Shown: in pieces, positions 2,858 to 36,332 of the stretch
How positions within the stretch are numbered: the first letter of the stretch is position 1
How the letters are laid out: every line of letters begins with the position of its first letter
Source of the DNA: Pseudomonadota bacterium
Lineage (GTDB): Bacteria; Pseudomonadota; Alphaproteobacteria; UBA828
Length of the DNA stretch: 52,706 bases
Reading direction: 5' to 3'
Assembly (NCBI GenBank): GCA_027624955.1
Contig: JAQBTG010000027.1
Coordinates: 1 to 52,706 of the forward strand
Notes under the pieces: model-generated
What the model saw: the letters and a program-made list of their open reading frames with translations, nothing else
What the model was told of the DNA's origin: nothing
Databases searched by the model: none
Made by a program: the position numbers and the translations under genes

Positions 2858-3925
2858 ATGGCAAGCCTAGAACTTTGTGGCGTCAGCAAGTCCTACGGCA
2901 ACACTGTGGCCGTCGCCGACATCGACCTCAAGATTGCCGACAATGAATTTTTCTGCATTTTCGGCCCGCCAAGCTGCGGCAAAACCACCATTTTAAGGCT
3001 GCTGCTCGGCCTCGTTGCGCCGGATTCGGGCCAGGTGCGTATCGGCGGCGTAGACGTCACCGATCAGCCGCCCAAGGACCGAAATCTGGCCATGGTATTT
3101 CAGAATCTGGCGCTTTTCCCACATATGACGACGCGGAAGAATCTCGCTTTTCCCTTAACCGAACGCAAAATGGAAAAATCGCTGATTGAGGCGCGCATCA
3201 AACAGGTGGCGGAGACCCTGCACATCACGCCGCTCCTGAACAAGCTACCGGCGCATTTGAGCGGCGGCGAGCGCCAGCGCGTGGCGATCGGCCGCGCCTT
3301 GGTTCGCGATCCGGGTGCCTTTCTTATGGACGAGCCCATTGCGGCACTGGATGCGCGTTTGCGCGAGGAAATGCGGGTCGAACTGAAGCGCCTGCAACGT
3401 GAGCAAAACCATACCCTTGTCTATGTAACTCATGATCAGGAAGAGGCCATGTCGGTCGCCGACAGGATGGCAATTTTCGAAGGCGGGCGGGTTCGTCAGG
3501 TCGGCGCGCCAGCGGAAATCTACAATTTGCCAAATAGCCGCTACGTCGCCGAGCTAATCGGCTCGCCGCCGATGAACTTTGTTGAAGGTCAAGTCGAGGG
3601 CGGCGCTTTTCGGGCGGTAGAGCAAAACATCATGCTGCCGTTTGCGGGCGTGAGCTATCGCGGCCCGGCCAGCCTTGCCGTGCGTCCCGAGGATATCGAA
3701 ATCCGTGGCGCCGATCAGGACGGCATCGAGGCCAAGGTGTACGAGGTCGAACCTCTCGGCGCGTTCACCATCGTCGACATCATCATCGGCGATAAAATCC
3801 TCAAGGTGCAAGTCGCAGGACAGCCGGAATTTGAACTCGGCAAACCGGTCCGCCTGTGGGTCGAACCGATGAATTGCCATTTGTTCGACGGCAACAGCGG
3901 CGACAGAATCGCCGACGCCGGTTGA
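2858..3925 (+). CDS. ABC importer ATPase, partner subunit with intact signature
   Basis: This 355-residue MalK-like ATPase lies 4 nt downstream of its paralogue. The P-loop is GPPSCGKT (36-43); it still matches GxxxxGKT, but Ser replaces the usual fourth-position Gly. The Q-loop (FQNLALFPHM), signature LSGGERQR (134-141), Walker B (FLMDEP), D-loop and H-loop (VTHDQEEAM) are all canonical. A TOBE-like C-terminal domain follows from about residue 235. Together with the previous gene it should make an asymmetric dimer: one site uses Walker A of the first subunit with LSGGE of this one, and the other uses this P-loop with the degenerate LSVNE. No solute-binding protein gene follows, so it is probably upstream of the window. 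Confidence 0.9.
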   Translation: MASLELCGVSKSYGNTVAVADIDLKIADNEFFCIFGPPSCGKTTILRLLLGLVAPDSGQVRIGGVDVTDQPPKDRNLAMVFQNLALFPHMTTRKNLAFPLTERKMEKSLIEARIKQVAETLHITPLLNKLPAHLSGGERQRVAIGRALVRDPGAFLMDEPIAALDARLREEMRVELKRLQREQNHTLVYVTHDQEEAMSVADRMAIFEGGRVRQVGAPAEIYNLPNSRYVAELIGSPPMNFVEGQVEGGAFRAVEQNIMLPFAGVSYRGPASLAVRPEDIEIRGADQDGIEAKVYEVEPLGAFTIVDIIIGDKILKVQVAGQPEFELGKPVRLWVEPMNCHLFDGNSGDRIADAG

Positions 3926-7397: not shown

Positions 7398-7723
7398 GTG
7401 TGACGGTGCGCGATCTCGCCCATGCCCGCGCCGGCGATAAGGGCAGCTGGGTCAACATTTCGGTGACCGCGCATGATGACGCGGGCTATGAGCGGCTGCT
7501 CCGTGAGCTGACCGAAGCGCGCGTTTTAGCGGCATTTGCCCCGGTCGCGAAAGGCCCGGTGCGGCGCTTTGAACTGGCCCAGCTGCGAGCGATGAATTTT
7601 GTTGTCGAGAATATTCGCGGCGGCAGCGTCACCCAAACCTCGGCGCTCGATATTCACGGCAAAAGCCTGAGCGGGCTTATGCTCGGCATATGCTTGTTTG
7701 GCAATGAGCCACACGCGTCGTGA
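7394..7723 (+). CDS. AtuA-like ferredoxin-fold domain protein
   Basis: This 109-residue protein corresponds to the C-terminal domain of longer AtuA proteins. Hallmarks are DLAHARAGDKGSWVNI near the start and the later segments FELAQLRAMNFVVENIRGG and LDIHGKSL. It overlaps the AtuA stop as ATGA, which supports stoichiometric coupled translation and a physical complex with AtuA. There is no cysteine cluster, so the fold name does not imply an iron-sulphur cluster. Its function alone is unknown. Confidence 0.82.
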   Translation: MSVTVRDLAHARAGDKGSWVNISVTAHDDAGYERLLRELTEARVLAAFAPVAKGPVRRFELAQLRAMNFVVENIRGGSVTQTSALDIHGKSLSGLMLGICLFGNEPHAS

Positions 7724-7785
7724 CGGATTCCGCTCGATAGATTGCGCATAGCGGTGGCGCAAGTGAGACGCTAAGCTGGTGACTT

Positions 7786-8988
7786 ATGAACGTACCAACA
7801 ACCCCGTCCGCAACGATACCGAGCCGTGCCACGCTTCTGTCACGGGCGCAGGATTTGTTCGACACAGTCCGTGCGCGCTCGCAGGAAACCGAGGAGGCCC
7901 GCCGTCTCTCCGATGAGACAATTGCGGCCATGCGAGCGGCTGGACTTCACCGTATTTTGCAGCCAGGCCGCCACGGCGGGACCGCGGGGCATTTTTCCGG
8001 CATGGTCGATATCATCGATACCATTTCTCAAGCTTGCTGTGCCGCCGGTTGGTGCCTGACACAATATTGCTCGCATAATTGCTTACTCGGCTATTGGCCG
8101 CCTGAAGGACAGGACGAAATTTGGGGCCCGATGCCTGACGCCCTGGTCGCCGGTGTGTTGATTCCGGGCTGCGGCAAAGCGCGCAAAGTCGATGGTGGCT
8201 GGCGCCTGAGCGGACAATGGCCGTTCGCCAGTGGCATTTACGGCGCGGATTGGTTTATTGCCGCGGCCCTTGCCGAGAACGGCGACGGCCCGCCGATCGC
8301 TCAGATGCATGCCGTGCCGTTTGCCGACTATACAATCCTTGATACTTGGCAATCGGCGGGATTGCGCGGCACCGGCAGCACCGACGTTGCCATCGACGAT
8401 ATATTTGTGCCGGCGGCGCGCACCTTGCCGATCAACGAAACCAAAGGCGGCGGCAACGCGCCGGGCTGTGCGATCAACCCCGAGGCGACCTACAAGCTGC
8501 CGGCATTCGCGATGTTTTCGATTAATCAGAGCGCAGCGGCGCTCGGTTTAGCGCAGGCGACCCTTGATAGATATATCGAAGAGGGCCGCACTCGGGTGAC
8601 CCGCATGTCGGGCAAGAGCATCGCCGATTATTCCACAGTACAAGCCAAAGTTGGGGAGGCGCATACCGCGGTCGAGACGGCACGGTTGCTGCTGCATAAT
8701 TGCTGCGATCTTGGCATGGCGGTGGCCGAAAAATGCGAAGTGGCGCCGATGGAATTGAAGACCGAACTTCGCGCCAAGGCGTGTATGGGGGGCGTGCTCT
8801 CGGCCCAAGCGGTTGATCTCTTATATCAGGTTTCGGGCGGCGCCGGCCTGTATGACCGCAATCCGATTTCGCGCGCCATGCGGGACGCCAACTGCATGCG
8901 CGGCCACATCACCCAGAATTTAGATGTGAATGCATCCAATCATGGGCGGGTGCTGCTCGGCCTGCCGTCAGCGGACCTAGCGATCTAG
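7786..8988 (+). CDS. Flavin-dependent monooxygenase, acyl-CoA dehydrogenase fold (group D)
   Basis: This 400-residue protein has the acyl-CoA dehydrogenase fold, with an N-terminal helical domain, a beta domain including GWRLSGQWPFASG, and a C-terminal four-helix bundle. The WPFASG motif and the absence of the catalytic Glu region of true acyl-CoA dehydrogenases point to the oxygenase branch (HpaB-like, HsaA, p-hydroxyphenylacetate 3-hydroxylase C2), which uses reduced flavin supplied by a reductase. No reductase gene is nearby. It follows the AtuA pair after 62 nt and may belong to the same catabolic unit. The substrate is unknown, and a desaturase role is an alternative. Confidence 0.82.
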   Translation: MNVPTTPSATIPSRATLLSRAQDLFDTVRARSQETEEARRLSDETIAAMRAAGLHRILQPGRHGGTAGHFSGMVDIIDTISQACCAAGWCLTQYCSHNCLLGYWPPEGQDEIWGPMPDALVAGVLIPGCGKARKVDGGWRLSGQWPFASGIYGADWFIAAALAENGDGPPIAQMHAVPFADYTILDTWQSAGLRGTGSTDVAIDDIFVPAARTLPINETKGGGNAPGCAINPEATYKLPAFAMFSINQSAAALGLAQATLDRYIEEGRTRVTRMSGKSIADYSTVQAKVGEAHTAVETARLLLHNCCDLGMAVAEKCEVAPMELKTELRAKACMGGVLSAQAVDLLYQVSGGAGLYDRNPISRAMRDANCMRGHITQNLDVNASNHGRVLLGLPSADLAI

Positions 8989-20453: not shown

Positions 20454-22163
20454 ATGGTAAAAATCACACGCGAGCAATATGCCTCTTTCTATGGGCCGAC
20501 CAAGGGCGACAAAGTCCGCTTGGGGGATTCTTCTCTCTATGCGGAGATCGAGCACGACCACACGAGCTATGGCGATGAATGTTGGGTCGGCGCGGGGCGC
20601 ACCATGCGCGACGGCATGGCCTATGACGCGCATACCTCGCGCGCTGACGGTGCGCTCGACATGCTGATGGAAAACGCCACGATCATCGACCCGGTGCTGG
20701 GTATCATCAAGGCCGACATCGGCATCCGCGACGGCAAAATCGCCGGCATCGGCAAGGCCGGCAATCCTAATATCCAAGACGGTGTTGACCCCAACATGGT
20801 GTGCGGGCCAAACACAACCTATTACCCAACTGGTGGACTGATCGTGACGCCGGGCGGCATTGACGTCCACACCCACTTTTTTTCGGCCGAGCAATGCGAC
20901 CATGCGATTGCTACGGGGCTGACGACGATGATTGGCGGCGCGTTGGGACCGCTCTTTTCTATCGACTGCGGCGGCCCCTGGAACACCCATCGCATGATCG
21001 AGGCGGCGGAAAGTTTTCCGATGAATTTCGGCTTCCTAGGGCGCGGCTCATCGCACGACCCGAATACCATCATCGAGCATCTGGACGGCGGCATCATCGG
21101 CGTCAAAATCCACGAGGATTATGGCGCCATGCCGGCGACCATCGACGCCTGTCTCACGGCCTCTCAGGATTATGATTTCCCGGTACAAATCCATACCGAT
21201 ACGATGAACGAAGCGGGCTTTTATGAAAGCACCGTCGCGGCGATCGCGGGACGGACGATCCATATGTATCACGTTGAGGGCGGTGGCGGTGGCCATGCGC
21301 CCGACATCATCCGCTGCAATGGCGAGTTGAACTGCCTGACTTCATCGACCAATCCGACCAACCCCTATACCAAAAACGCTTTCGACGAAGGCCTCGACAT
21401 GACGATGTCGTGTCATCTCCTGCGCTACGACCTTCCGGAGGATGTGGCGTTTGCCGAAAGCCGCGTGCGTCCCGGCACCATGGCGGCGGAAGATGTGCTG
21501 CACGACATGGGCGCGATCGCCATGTTCGGTTCCGACAGTCAAGGCATGGGGCGTATCAACGAAGTGATCTCGCGCTGCTGGCAACTTGCGAGCAAGATGC
21601 GAGATCAACGCGGTCGTCTGCCTGAAGAAAAATCCAGAGACGCCGACAACGAGCGCATCAAGCGCTACATCGCGAAATACACGATCAACCCAGCGCGCGC
21701 TTTCGGCATCGACAAATATGTCGGCTCGCTTGAGCCCGGCAAGATGGCCGATCTGGTGACGTGGAAGCCATCGTTCTTCGGCATCAAGCCTGTTGCGACC
21801 ATCAAGGGTGGCTTCGTTGCCCATGGCGCGACCGGCGACAGCGCGGGCAGCTATTGGGCGACAGAGCCGGTGAAGCAGCGCGCGCAGTTCGGCGGAAGCG
21901 GCCGGGCGCCGGCCTCGCTGAGTGCGGTATTCGTGCATCAGCGGGCGCTCGACATCGACGTGCCGGGCAAGCTCGGGACCAGCAAGCCGTTGCTGCCCAT
22001 CGGTAGCTTCACCAAATTGAGCAAGAAGGACATGCTACACAACGACATCTGTCCGGAGATCAGAGTCGACCCGAATTCCTGGGACGTGTTCGTTGATGGC
22101 GAACTCGCGACCTGCGAACCGGCAGACGAAGTTTGCCTCGGGCAGAACTACATGTTGCGATGA
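20454..22163 (+). CDS. ureC: Urease alpha subunit
   Basis: This 569-residue catalytic subunit hydrolyses urea to ammonia and carbamate. The metal centre residues are in place: H139 and H141 (VHTHF), K218 to be carbamylated and H220 (VKIHEDY), H247 (QIHTD), H273 ([13 protein letters not shown]), D361 (GSDSQ). The mobile flap reads SCHLL (C320, H321): the catalytic Cys and His are kept, but the second His of the usual CHHL is Leu. Several segments differ from enterobacterial and plant ureases ([16 protein letters not shown]). It starts 4 nt after ureAB. The divergent sequence and lack of accessory genes raise the question of metal and true substrate. Confidence 0.93.
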
Positions 22164-32229: not shown

Positions 32230-33183
32230 TCATTCTAATATGGTGGCGTAGTCGTCGACGGAAAGAGCTTCCGGGATCAGGCCCTGTTCGTACATGAAGT
32301 GGGCGAAGCGGGCATAGCGCGCGCGGTCAAGCGCTGCGGGGCGGAGTGCGAAGCGCGCCAGCGTATCGCGCCAGGCGCGCCGGTTGAGTTCATCGTCCAA
32401 TTCGCTGCGGCCGCGAATGAACAGCGCCCAGCTTTCGTTAGGATGGTTCACCAGATATTGCACGCCGTCTTCGAGGGCGTCGAGAAAGCGGCGCAGGACG
32501 GCGCGGTTCATGCGCTCCGTATTGGCCACCAAAATCAATTCGTCATAACTCGGCACGCCTTCTTCCTCGACATAGAAGGCGCGGCCCGTATGGCCTTCGA
32601 TGTCCATTTGGTTGAGCTCGAAGTTGCGGTAGGCGCCGATCACCGCATCGACCTGGCCTGAGAGCAATGCCGGCGAGAGCGAGAAATTGACGTTCACCAG
32701 GGTGATGTCGTCGAGGCTAAGGCCGTGGCGCGCCAACATGGCGCTCAACAACGCATCCTCGAAACCGCCGATGGAATAGCCGACCTTGCGCCCTTTGAGA
32801 TCGGCGATCGATTTTACCGGGCCATCTTCGAGCACGAGTAAGGTGTTGAGCGGCGTCGCGATCAACGTGCCGAAGCGCGTGAGCGGCAGGCCCGCCGCAA
32901 CCTGGACATAAAGTTGCGGCTGATACGAGAGTGCGATATCGGCCTTGCCGGCGGCGACCAGCTTCGGCGGATCGTTGGGATCGGCGGGCGCAATGATCTC
33001 CACGTCGAGCCCATGCGCGGCGAAATAGCCGCGTTCCTGGGCGACCAACAGCGGTGCATGATCGGGATTAATGAACCAGTCAAGCAGCAGAGTTAGTTTG
33101 TCGTTCGCCTGAGCGCCTGTCGATGCCAGCAGCAACACGAGTGTCACCGGCAACAGAAAAGAGCGTCGGAACATGTAAAACAT
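32230..33183 (-). CDS. thiY: Thiamine-precursor ABC transporter, substrate-binding protein
   Basis: This 317-residue periplasmic protein of the NMT1/THI5-like group has an N-terminal signal (FLLPVTLVLLLASTGAQA). The mature start KLTLLLDWFINPDHAPLLVAQERGYFAAHGLDV is typical of ThiY, which binds formyl-aminopyrimidine, a thiamine breakdown product salvaged to HMP. The TPP riboswitch at the head of the operon strongly supports this role. The gene is 7 nt after thiX. A nearby second Met (MFRRSFLL) is an alternative start. Confidence 0.9.
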   Translation of the reverse strand: MFYMFRRSFLLPVTLVLLLASTGAQANDKLTLLLDWFINPDHAPLLVAQERGYFAAHGLDVEIIAPADPNDPPKLVAAGKADIALSYQPQLYVQVAAGLPLTRFGTLIATPLNTLLVLEDGPVKSIADLKGRKVGYSIGGFEDALLSAMLARHGLSLDDITLVNVNFSLSPALLSGQVDAVIGAYRNFELNQMDIEGHTGRAFYVEEEGVPSYDELILVANTERMNRAVLRRFLDALEDGVQYLVNHPNESWALFIRGRSELDDELNRRAWRDTLARFALRPAALDRARYARFAHFMYEQGLIPEALSVDDYATILE

Positions 33184-33190
33184 GGCGGGA

Positions 33191-33955
33191 TTACTCCTGT
33201 TGGTGGGCCGGCAATTTGTCGGGCTGCCAGGGCAAGGCGTGACGCAGTCCGTTGTCGACGATGAAATAGATAATCACGGCGAAGAACGCCAAAGTGAGCA
33301 GCGCGGCGAACATCAAATCGGTTTGTACACGCCCGTTGGCATGCAGCATGAGATAGCCGAGGCCAGCGCTGGCGCCGACCCATTCGCCGACTACCGCGCC
33401 GATAGGCGCGACAGCAGTGGCGACGCGCAATCCCGAAGCAAGGGCGGGCAGGGCGGCCGGCATACGGATGCGGGTGAGCATCTTCCAACGGCTGGCGCCC
33501 ATGGTGCGGGCGAGATCGGTCCAGCCTGGCTCGGTGCGGCGCAGGCCGTCGAAGAAACTGACGGTTACCGGGAAATAGATAATCAGAGTCGCCATCGCCA
33601 CCTTGGAGGTGATGCCATAGCCCAGCCACAGCACCAGGATGGGCGCGAGCGCGAAGACCGGCACCGCCTGAGACGCGACCAAAACCGGCAACAGCCAGCG
33701 CCTGGCAGGGCGGAAATAAGCCAGCGCCAGGGCGCTTGATACGCCGAGCGCCACGCCGCACAAAAGGCCGAGGGCGATTTCCAACAACGTGACCCCGGCA
33801 TGCCCGAGGATCGTCAGGTGATGCGTCCACCAGGCTTCGGCAACGCGCGCCGGCGCCGGCAAAATGAAATGCGGCGCGTCTGTCAGCCAGACGATGATCT
33901 GCCACAGCAGCACCAAGCCGGCGATGATTATGAGCGGGCGGATGAAGCGCATCAT
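33191..33955 (-). CDS. thiX: Thiamine-precursor ABC transporter permease
   Basis: This 254-residue permease of the TauC/SsuC/ThiX type has about six helices. The EAA-type loop is RTEPGWTDLARTMGASRWKMLTRIRMPAALPALASGLRV. It overlaps thiZ by 4 nt (ATGA) and lies just before thiY. The substrate is inferred from the riboswitch and partner. Confidence 0.9.
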   Translation of the reverse strand: MMRFIRPLIIIAGLVLLWQIIVWLTDAPHFILPAPARVAEAWWTHHLTILGHAGVTLLEIALGLLCGVALGVSSALALAYFRPARRWLLPVLVASQAVPVFALAPILVLWLGYGITSKVAMATLIIYFPVTVSFFDGLRRTEPGWTDLARTMGASRWKMLTRIRMPAALPALASGLRVATAVAPIGAVVGEWVGASAGLGYLMLHANGRVQTDLMFAALLTLAFFAVIIYFIVDNGLRHALPWQPDKLPAHQQE

Positions 33956-34737
33956 ATTTGTGCGTCGGCGGCGCGGAGGCGGCGCAGCAATTCCGCGTGA
34001 TGGCCGAGAAAATCAGCGTCGGCCGGATCGCGTGGCGTGTTGCCGGCGGGCGGCGGCACTTGGCTAAGCTCCGCCGGGCGCCCGGCCATGATAAAGATGC
34101 GCTCGCCGATACGCAGTGCCTCCATCGGGTCGTGGGTGACGAGCAGGATCGTGCGCCCGCGCAACAACTCGGCAGCAAGCTCTTGGAGGCGCAGGCGGGT
34201 TATGGCGTCGAGCGCGGAAAACGGCTCATCCATCAGCACCACTGGGCGGTCTTCCATCAGGGTGCGGGCGAGGGCGACGCGCTGACGCATACCGCCCGAC
34301 AATGTCGCCGGCAAGGCTTTCTCGCGGTCCGCCAGGCCGACGCGGGCTAGCAAATCGCGGGCGCGGGCGCGGTCCGGCAGTTCACCGCGCAGGCGCCCTC
34401 CCAACATGACGTTGCTGAGCACATCCAGCCACGGCAACAGCAAATCCTGTTGCGCCATATAGGCGATGGAGGTCGATAATTTGGCCGGCGCACCGGCACC
34501 GTTTGCAGTGATGTCGATCTTGCCGCCAGTCTCAAATTCTTCAAGGCCAGCGATCAATCGCAGCAGGCTGCTTTTGCCCACACCGCTCGGCCCGAGAAGA
34601 GCGCTGCACAGGCCAGCTGGCAAGTCCAGATCCAGGCCTTCAAAGAGATACGCACCGGCGTAGCTGAGGCTTACGCCTGAAATCGATATGGCAGGGGACG
34701 GCGATATCGCAGAGGGGGGAGTGGGGGTGTGCGGCAA
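33952..34737 (-). CDS. thiZ: Thiamine-precursor ABC transporter ATPase
   Basis: This ATPase is about 261 residues from the TTG at 34737. Walker A is GPSGVGKSS, the Q-loop YMAQQDLLLPWLDV, the signature LSGGMRQRVALARTL, Walker B VVLMDEP, H-loop VTHDPMEAL. The frame stays open further upstream through the riboswitch, but that part is an RNA element and cannot be coding in practice. TTG 34737 is the only ordinary start codon between the aptamer and the first ABC strand, and it lies at the aptamer's 3' edge, where ligand binding could block the ribosome. Confidence 0.88.
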   Translation of the reverse strand: MPHTPTPPSAISPSPAISISGVSLSYAGAYLFEGLDLDLPAGLCSALLGPSGVGKSSLLRLIAGLEEFETGGKIDITANGAGAPAKLSTSIAYMAQQDLLLPWLDVLSNVMLGGRLRGELPDRARARDLLARVGLADREKALPATLSGGMRQRVALARTLMEDRPVVLMDEPFSALDAITRLRLQELAAELLRGRTILLVTHDPMEALRIGERIFIMAGRPAELSQVPPPAGNTPRDPADADFLGHHAELLRRLRAADAQI

Positions 34738-34832
34738 ATTCCCAGTTCCTACGCCGGCATTAACCGGATCAGGTTTCGGGGTCGTTGGCGGCGCCAACCT
34801 CTCAGCCGAAATGGCTCCCCCCGAGAAGAATA
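34738..34832 (-). promoter_or_regulatory. TPP riboswitch (THI element)
   Basis: Read on the minus strand the region has, in order: the GGGGGGAGCC start, CTGAGA (34805-34800) in GGCTGAGAGG, a hairpin GTTGGCG/CGCCAAC, ACCTGAT (34774-34768), and GGTTAATGCCGGCGTAGG (34765-34748). These are the near-invariant bases of the thi-box aptamer. With TPP bound, expression of thiZXY should fall. The TTG start directly after the aptamer suggests control at translation initiation; no terminator stem is visible. Confidence 0.95.
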
Positions 34833-34920
34833 TGACTATGTCCGACTGGTGCGGCAGGCGCAAGGCCAATCCAGCGGATTCTCTCGGTTTTCGGGGCGGT
34901 GCCGCGAGTAATTATTACAT

Positions 34921-34952
34921 ATACGCATAATCATACTTGACATATATTCGTA
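34921..34952. promoter_or_regulatory. Bipartite operator upstream of the MarR gene
   Basis: ATACGCATA (34921-34929) and TATTCGTA (34945-34952) form an imperfect inverted pair starting 24 bp apart. The same pair with the same spacing recurs at 35703-35734. The site brackets the -35 box of the MarR promoter, so a bound protein would repress it. Autoregulation by the MarR protein is the simplest model. Confidence 0.65.
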
Positions 34953-34965
34953 TCATGCATAAATA
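34937..34965 (+). promoter_or_regulatory. Strong sigma-70-type promoter of the MarR gene
   Basis: TTGACA (34937-34942), 17-bp spacer, TAAATA (34960-34965). The -35 box is a consensus match. Transcription would start near 34972, giving a leader of about 27 nt with GGAGAG before the ATG at 34999. Confidence 0.75.
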
Positions 34966-34998
34966 GGGGGGAGACGAAACGAATCTAGGAGAGTGGAC

Positions 34999-35565
34999 AT
35001 GGCAACCAATTCGGCGAAAGTTTATCAGGAACTCAGTATCCCGCCGCTGCGCGCTGAAAGCCGCATCGCGCTCGAAAGCTTCCTGCCCTATCAGCTCTCC
35101 GTCATCGCCAGCCGTGTAAGCCGCGGTTTGGCCCGGCTTTATGCCGTGCGCTTCGATTTGACCGTTCAGGAATGGCGTATCATGACCGTATTGGGACGCT
35201 TTCCCGGGGTTTGCGCCAATGAGGTCGGCGAACTGACGGCGATGGACAAGGTGCGGGTCAGTCGCGGTGTGGCGCGGTTGTTACAGTTTGAGCGCGTCCG
35301 CCGTGATTCAGACCCCAGCGACCGGCGCCGCTCCAAGCTCTATCTCAGCGATAGCGGGCGCGAGGTCTATGACCAGATCGTGCCGGTGGCACGTGCCTAT
35401 CAGGACAAGCTGGTAGCCGATCTCGACAGCGCCGAGATGCGCTTACTGGAGACACTGCTGGCCAAGATCGAGAGCGGTGTTGCCGCAATTGGCAAGGAGG
35501 GCTTCGGCCTGGCCTCCGGCCTCGATACCGCGGCGCACACACGCGGGCGCTTTAACGGTCATTAG
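34999..35565 (+). CDS. MarR family transcriptional regulator
   Basis: This 188-residue winged-helix regulator has MarR features: helices around PYQLSVIASRVSRGLARLYAVRFDLTVQEWRIMTVLG, a recognition helix region MDKVRVSRGVARLLQFERV and the wing DRRRSKLYLSDSGREVYD. The start is ATG 34999 (AGGAGAG upstream) rather than the GTG two codons earlier. The ligand is unknown. It has its own strong promoter with overlapping operator halves, and a related site precedes the XRE gene at 35809, so it may control both. Confidence 0.88.
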   Translation: MATNSAKVYQELSIPPLRAESRIALESFLPYQLSVIASRVSRGLARLYAVRFDLTVQEWRIMTVLGRFPGVCANEVGELTAMDKVRVSRGVARLLQFERVRRDSDPSDRRRSKLYLSDSGREVYDQIVPVARAYQDKLVADLDSAEMRLLETLLAKIESGVAAIGKEGFGLASGLDTAAHTRGRFNGH

Positions 35566-35702
35566 GTAGGCGTCCCTGTAGGCGCCGGATATATCGCCAA
35601 GAGACTAAAGTAACACGGAAACAGCCGCTCTTCCGTCCCCCGGCTCCTAGCCGTCTATAGGGAAGCACCGGTTCCTTGGCGTGAGAGGACAATAAATTCG
35701 CT

Positions 35703-35734
35703 ATACGCATATTAACCAAGTTATGTTATTCGTG
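35703..35734. promoter_or_regulatory. Second copy of the bipartite operator, upstream of the XRE gene
   Basis: ATACGCATA (35703-35711) and TATTCGTG (35727-35734) repeat the MarR-promoter element with the same 24-bp offset; 16 of the 17 half-site positions agree. The bases between differ, which argues for a conserved binding site and not a recent duplication. Confidence 0.65.
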
Positions 35735-35806
35735 TACGGCAAGGTGATTCGCGAGACCACGCGTGAGACCAGGCGTCAAATTAGGCGCGAGACCAGGAGT
35801 GTATAG
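35723..35806 (+). CDS. Possible 27-residue leader peptide built on a 12-bp repeat
   Basis: An ATG at 35723 opens a 27-codon frame ending in TAG 35804-35806, two nt before the XRE start codon. The peptide begins MLFVYGKVIRETTRETRR and is Arg-rich because the 12-bp repeat unit encodes RET-R blocks. Later in-frame GTG codons (35732, 35744) could also start it. There is no strong ribosome binding site, so translation is unproven. Termination so close to the next start would suit translational coupling. Confidence 0.35.
   Translation: MLFVYGKVIRETTRETRRQIRRETRSV
35749..35796 (+). repeat. Tandem 12-bp repeat, four units
   Basis: The units are TCGCGAGACCAC, GCGTGAGACCAG, GCGTCAAATTAG (diverged) and GCGCGAGACCAG, in perfect 12-nt register. 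The final AG merges with GAG to give the AGGAG ribosome binding site of the XRE gene. The period of 12 equals four codons. Confidence 0.75.
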
Positions 35807-35808
35807 CG

Positions 35809-36306
35809 ATGGAAATGGCGTTTGCCGCGAGAATACAGGCGTTGCGCGAGGGCCTCGGGATGACCCAGGCCAAGTTCGCCAAAGCCCTGGTTGTGAGCCA
35901 GGGCGCGGTGTCGCGCTGGGAACAGGGCAAACATGCGCCGAGCGAGCATATGCTGGCCAAAATAGCCGCGCTCGCCGGGATGACATCTGCCGAACTCAGA
36001 TATGGCGCCAGCTATGCGCCGCCCAGCTATGCGCCGGCGAGTGATGAAATGCCGGGCGCAGCCCCCGGCGGCACAGCAGACGGCACAGCAGACGGAAACA
36101 GCCGCCCGCTCGCCATCCGCTCCAAACGCGTGCGCCGCCGCGTTACCGACCTGCTTGAGGATTGCGTCATCAAGGCGCGCTCATCGGGTAAAGCCGATGT
36201 CGCCACAGCCCTCGAAGTGATCCTCGATAAATGCTGGGCCGACGCAGCACACTACCGAAAACATCTGCGCGAAAAAGATAAAACCAATAAACAAATAGCT
36301 AGCTAA
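35809..36306 (+). CDS. XRE-family helix-turn-helix regulator
   Basis: This 165-residue DNA-binding protein has an N-terminal HTH (about 5-60: RIQALREGLGMTQAKFAKALVVSQGAVSRWEQGKHAPS), a linker with Tyr-Ala-Pro and Gly-Thr-Ala-Asp repeats (about 65-100), and a basic helical C-terminal region (SKRVRRRVTDLLEDCVIKARS...). The linker DNA itself carries small repeats. The start ATG 35809 follows AGGAG. It is close to the MarR gene and probably in the same circuit. No toxin or phage gene is adjacent. Confidence 0.85.
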   Translation: MEMAFAARIQALREGLGMTQAKFAKALVVSQGAVSRWEQGKHAPSEHMLAKIAALAGMTSAELRYGASYAPPSYAPASDEMPGAAPGGTADGTADGNSRPLAIRSKRVRRRVTDLLEDCVIKARSSGKADVATALEVILDKCWADAAHYRKHLREKDKTNKQIAS

Positions 36307-36332
36307 ATAATATTGAGCGAAATCCGCCCGAC

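Follow-up and report, generated by a model that had tools for sequence, protein, structure and literature searches.

The P22 c2 repressor and the C proteins of restriction-modification systems are autoregulatory repressors whose operators consist of paired dimer sites, while a typical MarR operator is a palindrome of 16 to 20 bp for one dimer. The whole stretch of alphaproteobacterial DNA analyzed here (52,706 nucleotides; below, the window) carries, next to each other on the plus strand, a MarR-family regulator gene (positions 34999 to 35565; PF12802, E = 4e-8) and an XRE-family (HTH_3) regulator gene (35809 to 36306; PF01381, E = 1.6e-13, 50.9 bits against a cut-off of 23) whose homologues occupy this locus elsewhere in the family. 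In profile searches, the N-terminal domain of the XRE protein matched P22 c2 and the Csp231I C protein, the nearest among solved natural proteins, the top row of the search being a designed protein; a scan of viral contigs returned relatives at the HTH level only. The locus resembles the operators of lambda-repressor-fold HTH_3/XRE repressors (P22 c2, 434 and the C proteins) in having one inverted-repeat operator per promoter and paired, here predicted, dimer sites over the repressor's own promoter. It differs from them in being chromosomal rather than phage-borne, in the C-terminal domain of its XRE protein, in the spacing of the predicted sites (32 bp centre to centre) and in the presence of a MarR gene under the same operator. 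Upstream lies a divergent minus-strand operon (32230 to 34869) for an NMT1/THI5-type ABC transporter, behind a TPP riboswitch (34728 to 34831, minus strand; Rfam RF00059, 65.4 bits), and 3' of the two regulator genes a minus-strand sigma-70-like gene is followed by genes for an SDR protein and a DUF192 protein. Elsewhere in the window, an Rfam match to the Helicobacter 5' ureB sRNA (20609 to 20902, minus strand) probably reflects mere homology of a ureB coding sequence.

A pattern search found the paired element ATACGCATA-N15-TATTCGT(A/G) at only two places in the window, on the plus strand before each regulator gene. Operator 1 (34921 to 34952) consists of the left arm ATACGCATA (34921 to 34929) and the right arm TATTCGTA (34945 to 34952), and operator 2 (35703 to 35734), in the XRE promoter region, of the same left arm (35703 to 35711) and the right arm TATTCGTG (35727 to 35734). 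The original prediction of two copies with identical spacing was exactly right: in both, the half-sites start 24 bp apart with 15 bp between them, so that the whole site measures 31 to 32 bp and the arm centres are 23 bp apart. The right half repeats the left in inverted orientation (ACGCATA and the reverse complement of ACGAATA), the general form being ACGnATA-N15-TATnCGT. When a gap of 10 to 20 bp was allowed between the halves, the window held two matches and 100 shuffled versions none. A literature search with the motif letters gave no relevant match. A perfect -35 hexamer, TTGACA (34937 to 34942, plus strand; TTGACA or TTGGCA in relatives), lies between the arms of operator 1. It is followed after a 17-bp spacer, which includes the right arm, by TAAATA (34960 to 34965, plus strand), a weak putative -10 hexamer with three of six consensus positions. 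The bracketed -35 box had thus been recognized correctly; the description of the promoter as near-consensus was only half right, since a consensus scan called no promoter at this pair of hexamers, and it found no -10 that matches the consensus at the MarR or the XRE promoter. The XRE leader (35750 to 35801) also contains three repeats of 12 to 16 bp (CGCGAGACCACGCGTG and variants), which are present in this genome and absent from the relatives.

Orthologous genes, about 80% identical to those of our genome (G000), were available from two sister species, SI073_bin108 (G002, contig JABIXB010000183.1) and MarineAlpha10_Bin2 (G004, contig PTKB01000027.1). In the aligned intergenic regions, all 12 specified arm positions and the 15-bp gap were kept at each promoter across the three species, against a background column identity of 42% on the MarR side and 23% on the XRE side. 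Conservation thus covers the arms and their spacing and not the flanks, and a conserved inverted repeat stands in the XRE gene's own promoter region in all three species. The original prediction, which a lack of conservation of the halves in orthologous regions would have refuted, withstands this check. The MarR-promoter copy of both sister species has TACGAATA as its left arm and comes closer to a perfect inverted repeat (TACGAATA...TATTCGT). A relaxed pattern (ACGNATA-N14/15-TATNCG) was then counted through the genomes alongside control patterns. In G000 it occurred at the two promoters and in one further copy at the end of contig C29, which is also the third exact copy of the element in that genome, with control counts of 0; in G004 it occurred at the two promoters only, and G002 had one match elsewhere besides those at its two promoters, control counts across the three genomes being 0 to 1. 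The pattern is therefore essentially confined to these promoters, which argues for a real and dedicated operator and for a local circuit, as the phrase "small, self-contained switch" had implied. That the two promoters resemble each other by chance or common ancestry, with no function, is hardly credible: AT-rich promoter words do recur easily, and a lone half-site had no statistical significance in the window search, but arms and spacing are kept across species unlike the flanks, and the pattern is near-exclusive. The paired site is very probably an on/off operator through which one of the two regulators would control both genes.

Which regulator would bind it was approached by comparison with genomes of the same family that retain the locus and in which no MarR orthologue was found (n = 4; G006 and G011 nearly complete, G008 78% and G014 67% complete). 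At these loci, the divergent riboswitch-preceded transporter is followed by a small gene in the place of MarR, an XRE homologue (34 to 45% identity) and the DUF192 gene. The small genes that separate the thi promoter from XRE (L117, 5682 to 5942; L118, 5676 to 5933; L116, about 2500 to 2780) are uncharacterized, and a Pfam scan of two of them gave no match. In G008, which belongs to a different genus, the divergent thi/XRE/DUF192 interval (L116) reads ACGAATAATGCGG-TTGACA-GTTATTCG. The inverted repeat recurs here with a gap of 14 bp (ACGAATA-N14-TATTCG) around a perfect -35 box, at a shuffle frequency of 32 in 200,000. The N14-15 inverted repeat was absent from the XRE loci of genus g2 (L117, L118 and L073), which carry ACGAAT half-sites in the same interval, in the form TTTACGAAT(A/T)ATTCACC with further CGAAT half-sites; one of the four MarR-less loci therefore has the full repeat and the other three half-sites only. 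Conversely, the element is absent upstream of four MarR paralogues that are 51 to 56% identical and share the identical recognition helix AMDKVRVSR, and upstream of other MarR homologues. Those paralogue promoters (L067, about 7690 to 7800; L068; L069; L070) share a conserved CRP-like TGTGA-N6-TCACT motif of their own.

Since an XRE locus that lacks MarR has the element and MarR paralogues do not, XRE autoregulation is the better reading. This swap pattern favours XRE over MarR as the predicted binder, and MarR seems to have been inserted later under the operator of XRE. The claim of an operator shared by two neighbouring regulators thus holds as regards the sharing, by conservation and exclusivity, and is not borne out for the equal part it gives to MarR. 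All seven homologues retain the XRE recognition region VSQGAVSRWE with a single change, A to V; this invariance is weak evidence, because the helix resembles the generic HTH_3 consensus. We consider it unlikely that MarR binds the inverted repeat and represses both its own promoter and that of XRE. MarR proteins commonly autoregulate, the cleanest form of the element is found in the MarR-bearing genus, before MarR itself, and, as at known autoregulated MarR loci, an inverted repeat covers the -35/spacer region of the MarR gene. However, the site is longer than at those loci, with arms 15 bp apart over 31 to 32 bp instead of a palindrome of 16 to 20 bp, and its arm-centre distance of 23 bp is too great for a single winged-helix dimer; moreover, the comparison above separates it from MarR in both directions. 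A two-regulator switch, in which the two proteins would compete for the shared operators or occupy them jointly, is quite unlikely: the genes adjoin, the same site is present at each promoter and the two genes were duplicated together, but the element is older than MarR or independent of it, and no second conserved, MarR-specific motif was recognized.

The MarR-XRE segment (34885 to 36317, plus strand) occurs in two genomic settings. Window positions 34885 to 34953 form the end of contig C29, which encodes an asparaginase and an aldehyde dehydrogenase, and positions 36249 to 36317 the end of contig C79, which encodes an APH-type kinase. Each match is exact over 69 bp, as is characteristic of contigs that overlap in the assembly graph at a near-identical repeat; the second copy is known from its ends. 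The two settings are present in at least three species. In G002, thi, MarR, XRE and DUF192 lie on one contig and the XRE end is joined to the kinase on another, whereas in G004 asparaginase, MarR, XRE and kinase share one contig and the thi-side MarR promoter stands at the end of another. Misassembly alone was rejected as the cause, as these sister genomes hold each setting in unbroken contigs. A transposon was likewise rejected, with no terminal inverted repeats or target-site duplication seen at the segment junctions, and a 75% inverted pair near the segment ends looks like chance. Contig C91 of G003 ends where the empty site of the segment would be sought. Compared with its relatives, the G004 copy (L066, about 3500 to 3520) has 2 bp inserted in the MarR frame, which is thereby split; the insertion may be genuine or an error of sequencing, and in this copy XRE is intact, as are both operators. 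Within genomes, the copies are identical over the 69-bp ends in G000, 98% identical over 99 bp in G002 and about 89 to 92% identical in G004, while the same promoter is only about 69% identical between species. This higher likeness within genomes points to concerted evolution or repeated duplication, and gene conversion or repeated duplication would explain it.

These settings also bear on a regulator encoded elsewhere, one of the divergent TPP-riboswitch transporter region, which would use the site and leave the XRE-promoter copy as a by-product of duplication. Operator 1 does have the riboswitch operon on one side and MarR on the other, and in L116 the related site is in the same divergent interval. 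Such a regulator is nevertheless unlikely, since the element stands before MarR also in the second setting, without thi genes, and at the internal XRE promoter, and since G005, of the same genus, has the riboswitch operon without MarR and XRE and with no recognizable element there. A fuller history can be offered only tentatively: MarR may have been captured between the XRE repressor and its operator, yielding a two-regulator switch, and the resulting 1.4-kb unit may have been duplicated, with gene conversion within genomes and divergence between species.

We then considered how dimers might occupy the element. The proposal of partly palindromic half-sites bound by two dimers had rested on TATaCGcATA, and this palindrome was ruled out as a unit, its 5' TAT varying between relatives. 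A partly conserved ATnCG-N5-CGnAT would instead allow two dimers. When the left arms were oriented outward, AT occupied the position of the symmetric partner in 8 of 8, and the full CGnAT partner was present in 4 of 8, including all three XRE promoters and L116; around the left arm of operator 2, it forms the extended quasi-palindrome ATTCG-N5-CGCAT (35696 to 35710, plus strand), conserved in three species. Of the right arms, only those of the MarR promoter in G000 and G002 have a partner (TGCAT), and those at the XRE promoter lack a good outer one. Thus, a model with two dimer sites, their centres 32 bp apart, is plausible.

Taken as a whole, the comparisons lead us to assign a probability of roughly 0.6 to the reading in which XRE binds both operators and represses its own gene and MarR. 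The inverted repeat ACGnATA/TATnCGT with its fixed 15-bp gap would then be a transcriptional operator, one copy covering the -35 region of the MarR promoter and the other lying in the XRE promoter region. The P22-c2-like XRE protein would occupy both copies and repress its own gene as well as the MarR gene placed under the older operator copy, giving a negative-feedback loop limited to this locus. Each arm would probably be part of one dimer site, the better one being on the left, and, with 32 bp corresponding to three helical turns, two dimers could clamp the -35/spacer region. The sequences themselves show the element, its conservation, its near-exclusivity and its occurrence beside XRE where MarR is missing; binding, repression and the use of two dimers are inferred. 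The element would accordingly be filed as a further case of an autoregulatory XRE operator, in itself ordinary; unusual are its dedication to one locus, the insertion of MarR and the duplicated unit.

For genome reconstruction, the segment deserves a flag, as its two near-identical copies disrupt assemblies in several species. For the biology of this uncultured marine alphaproteobacterial lineage, the analysis provides a well-defined, near genome-exclusive putative operator with a testable regulator candidate, and the case documents the apparent recruitment of a second regulator under the operator of an existing repressor, followed by duplication of the unit.
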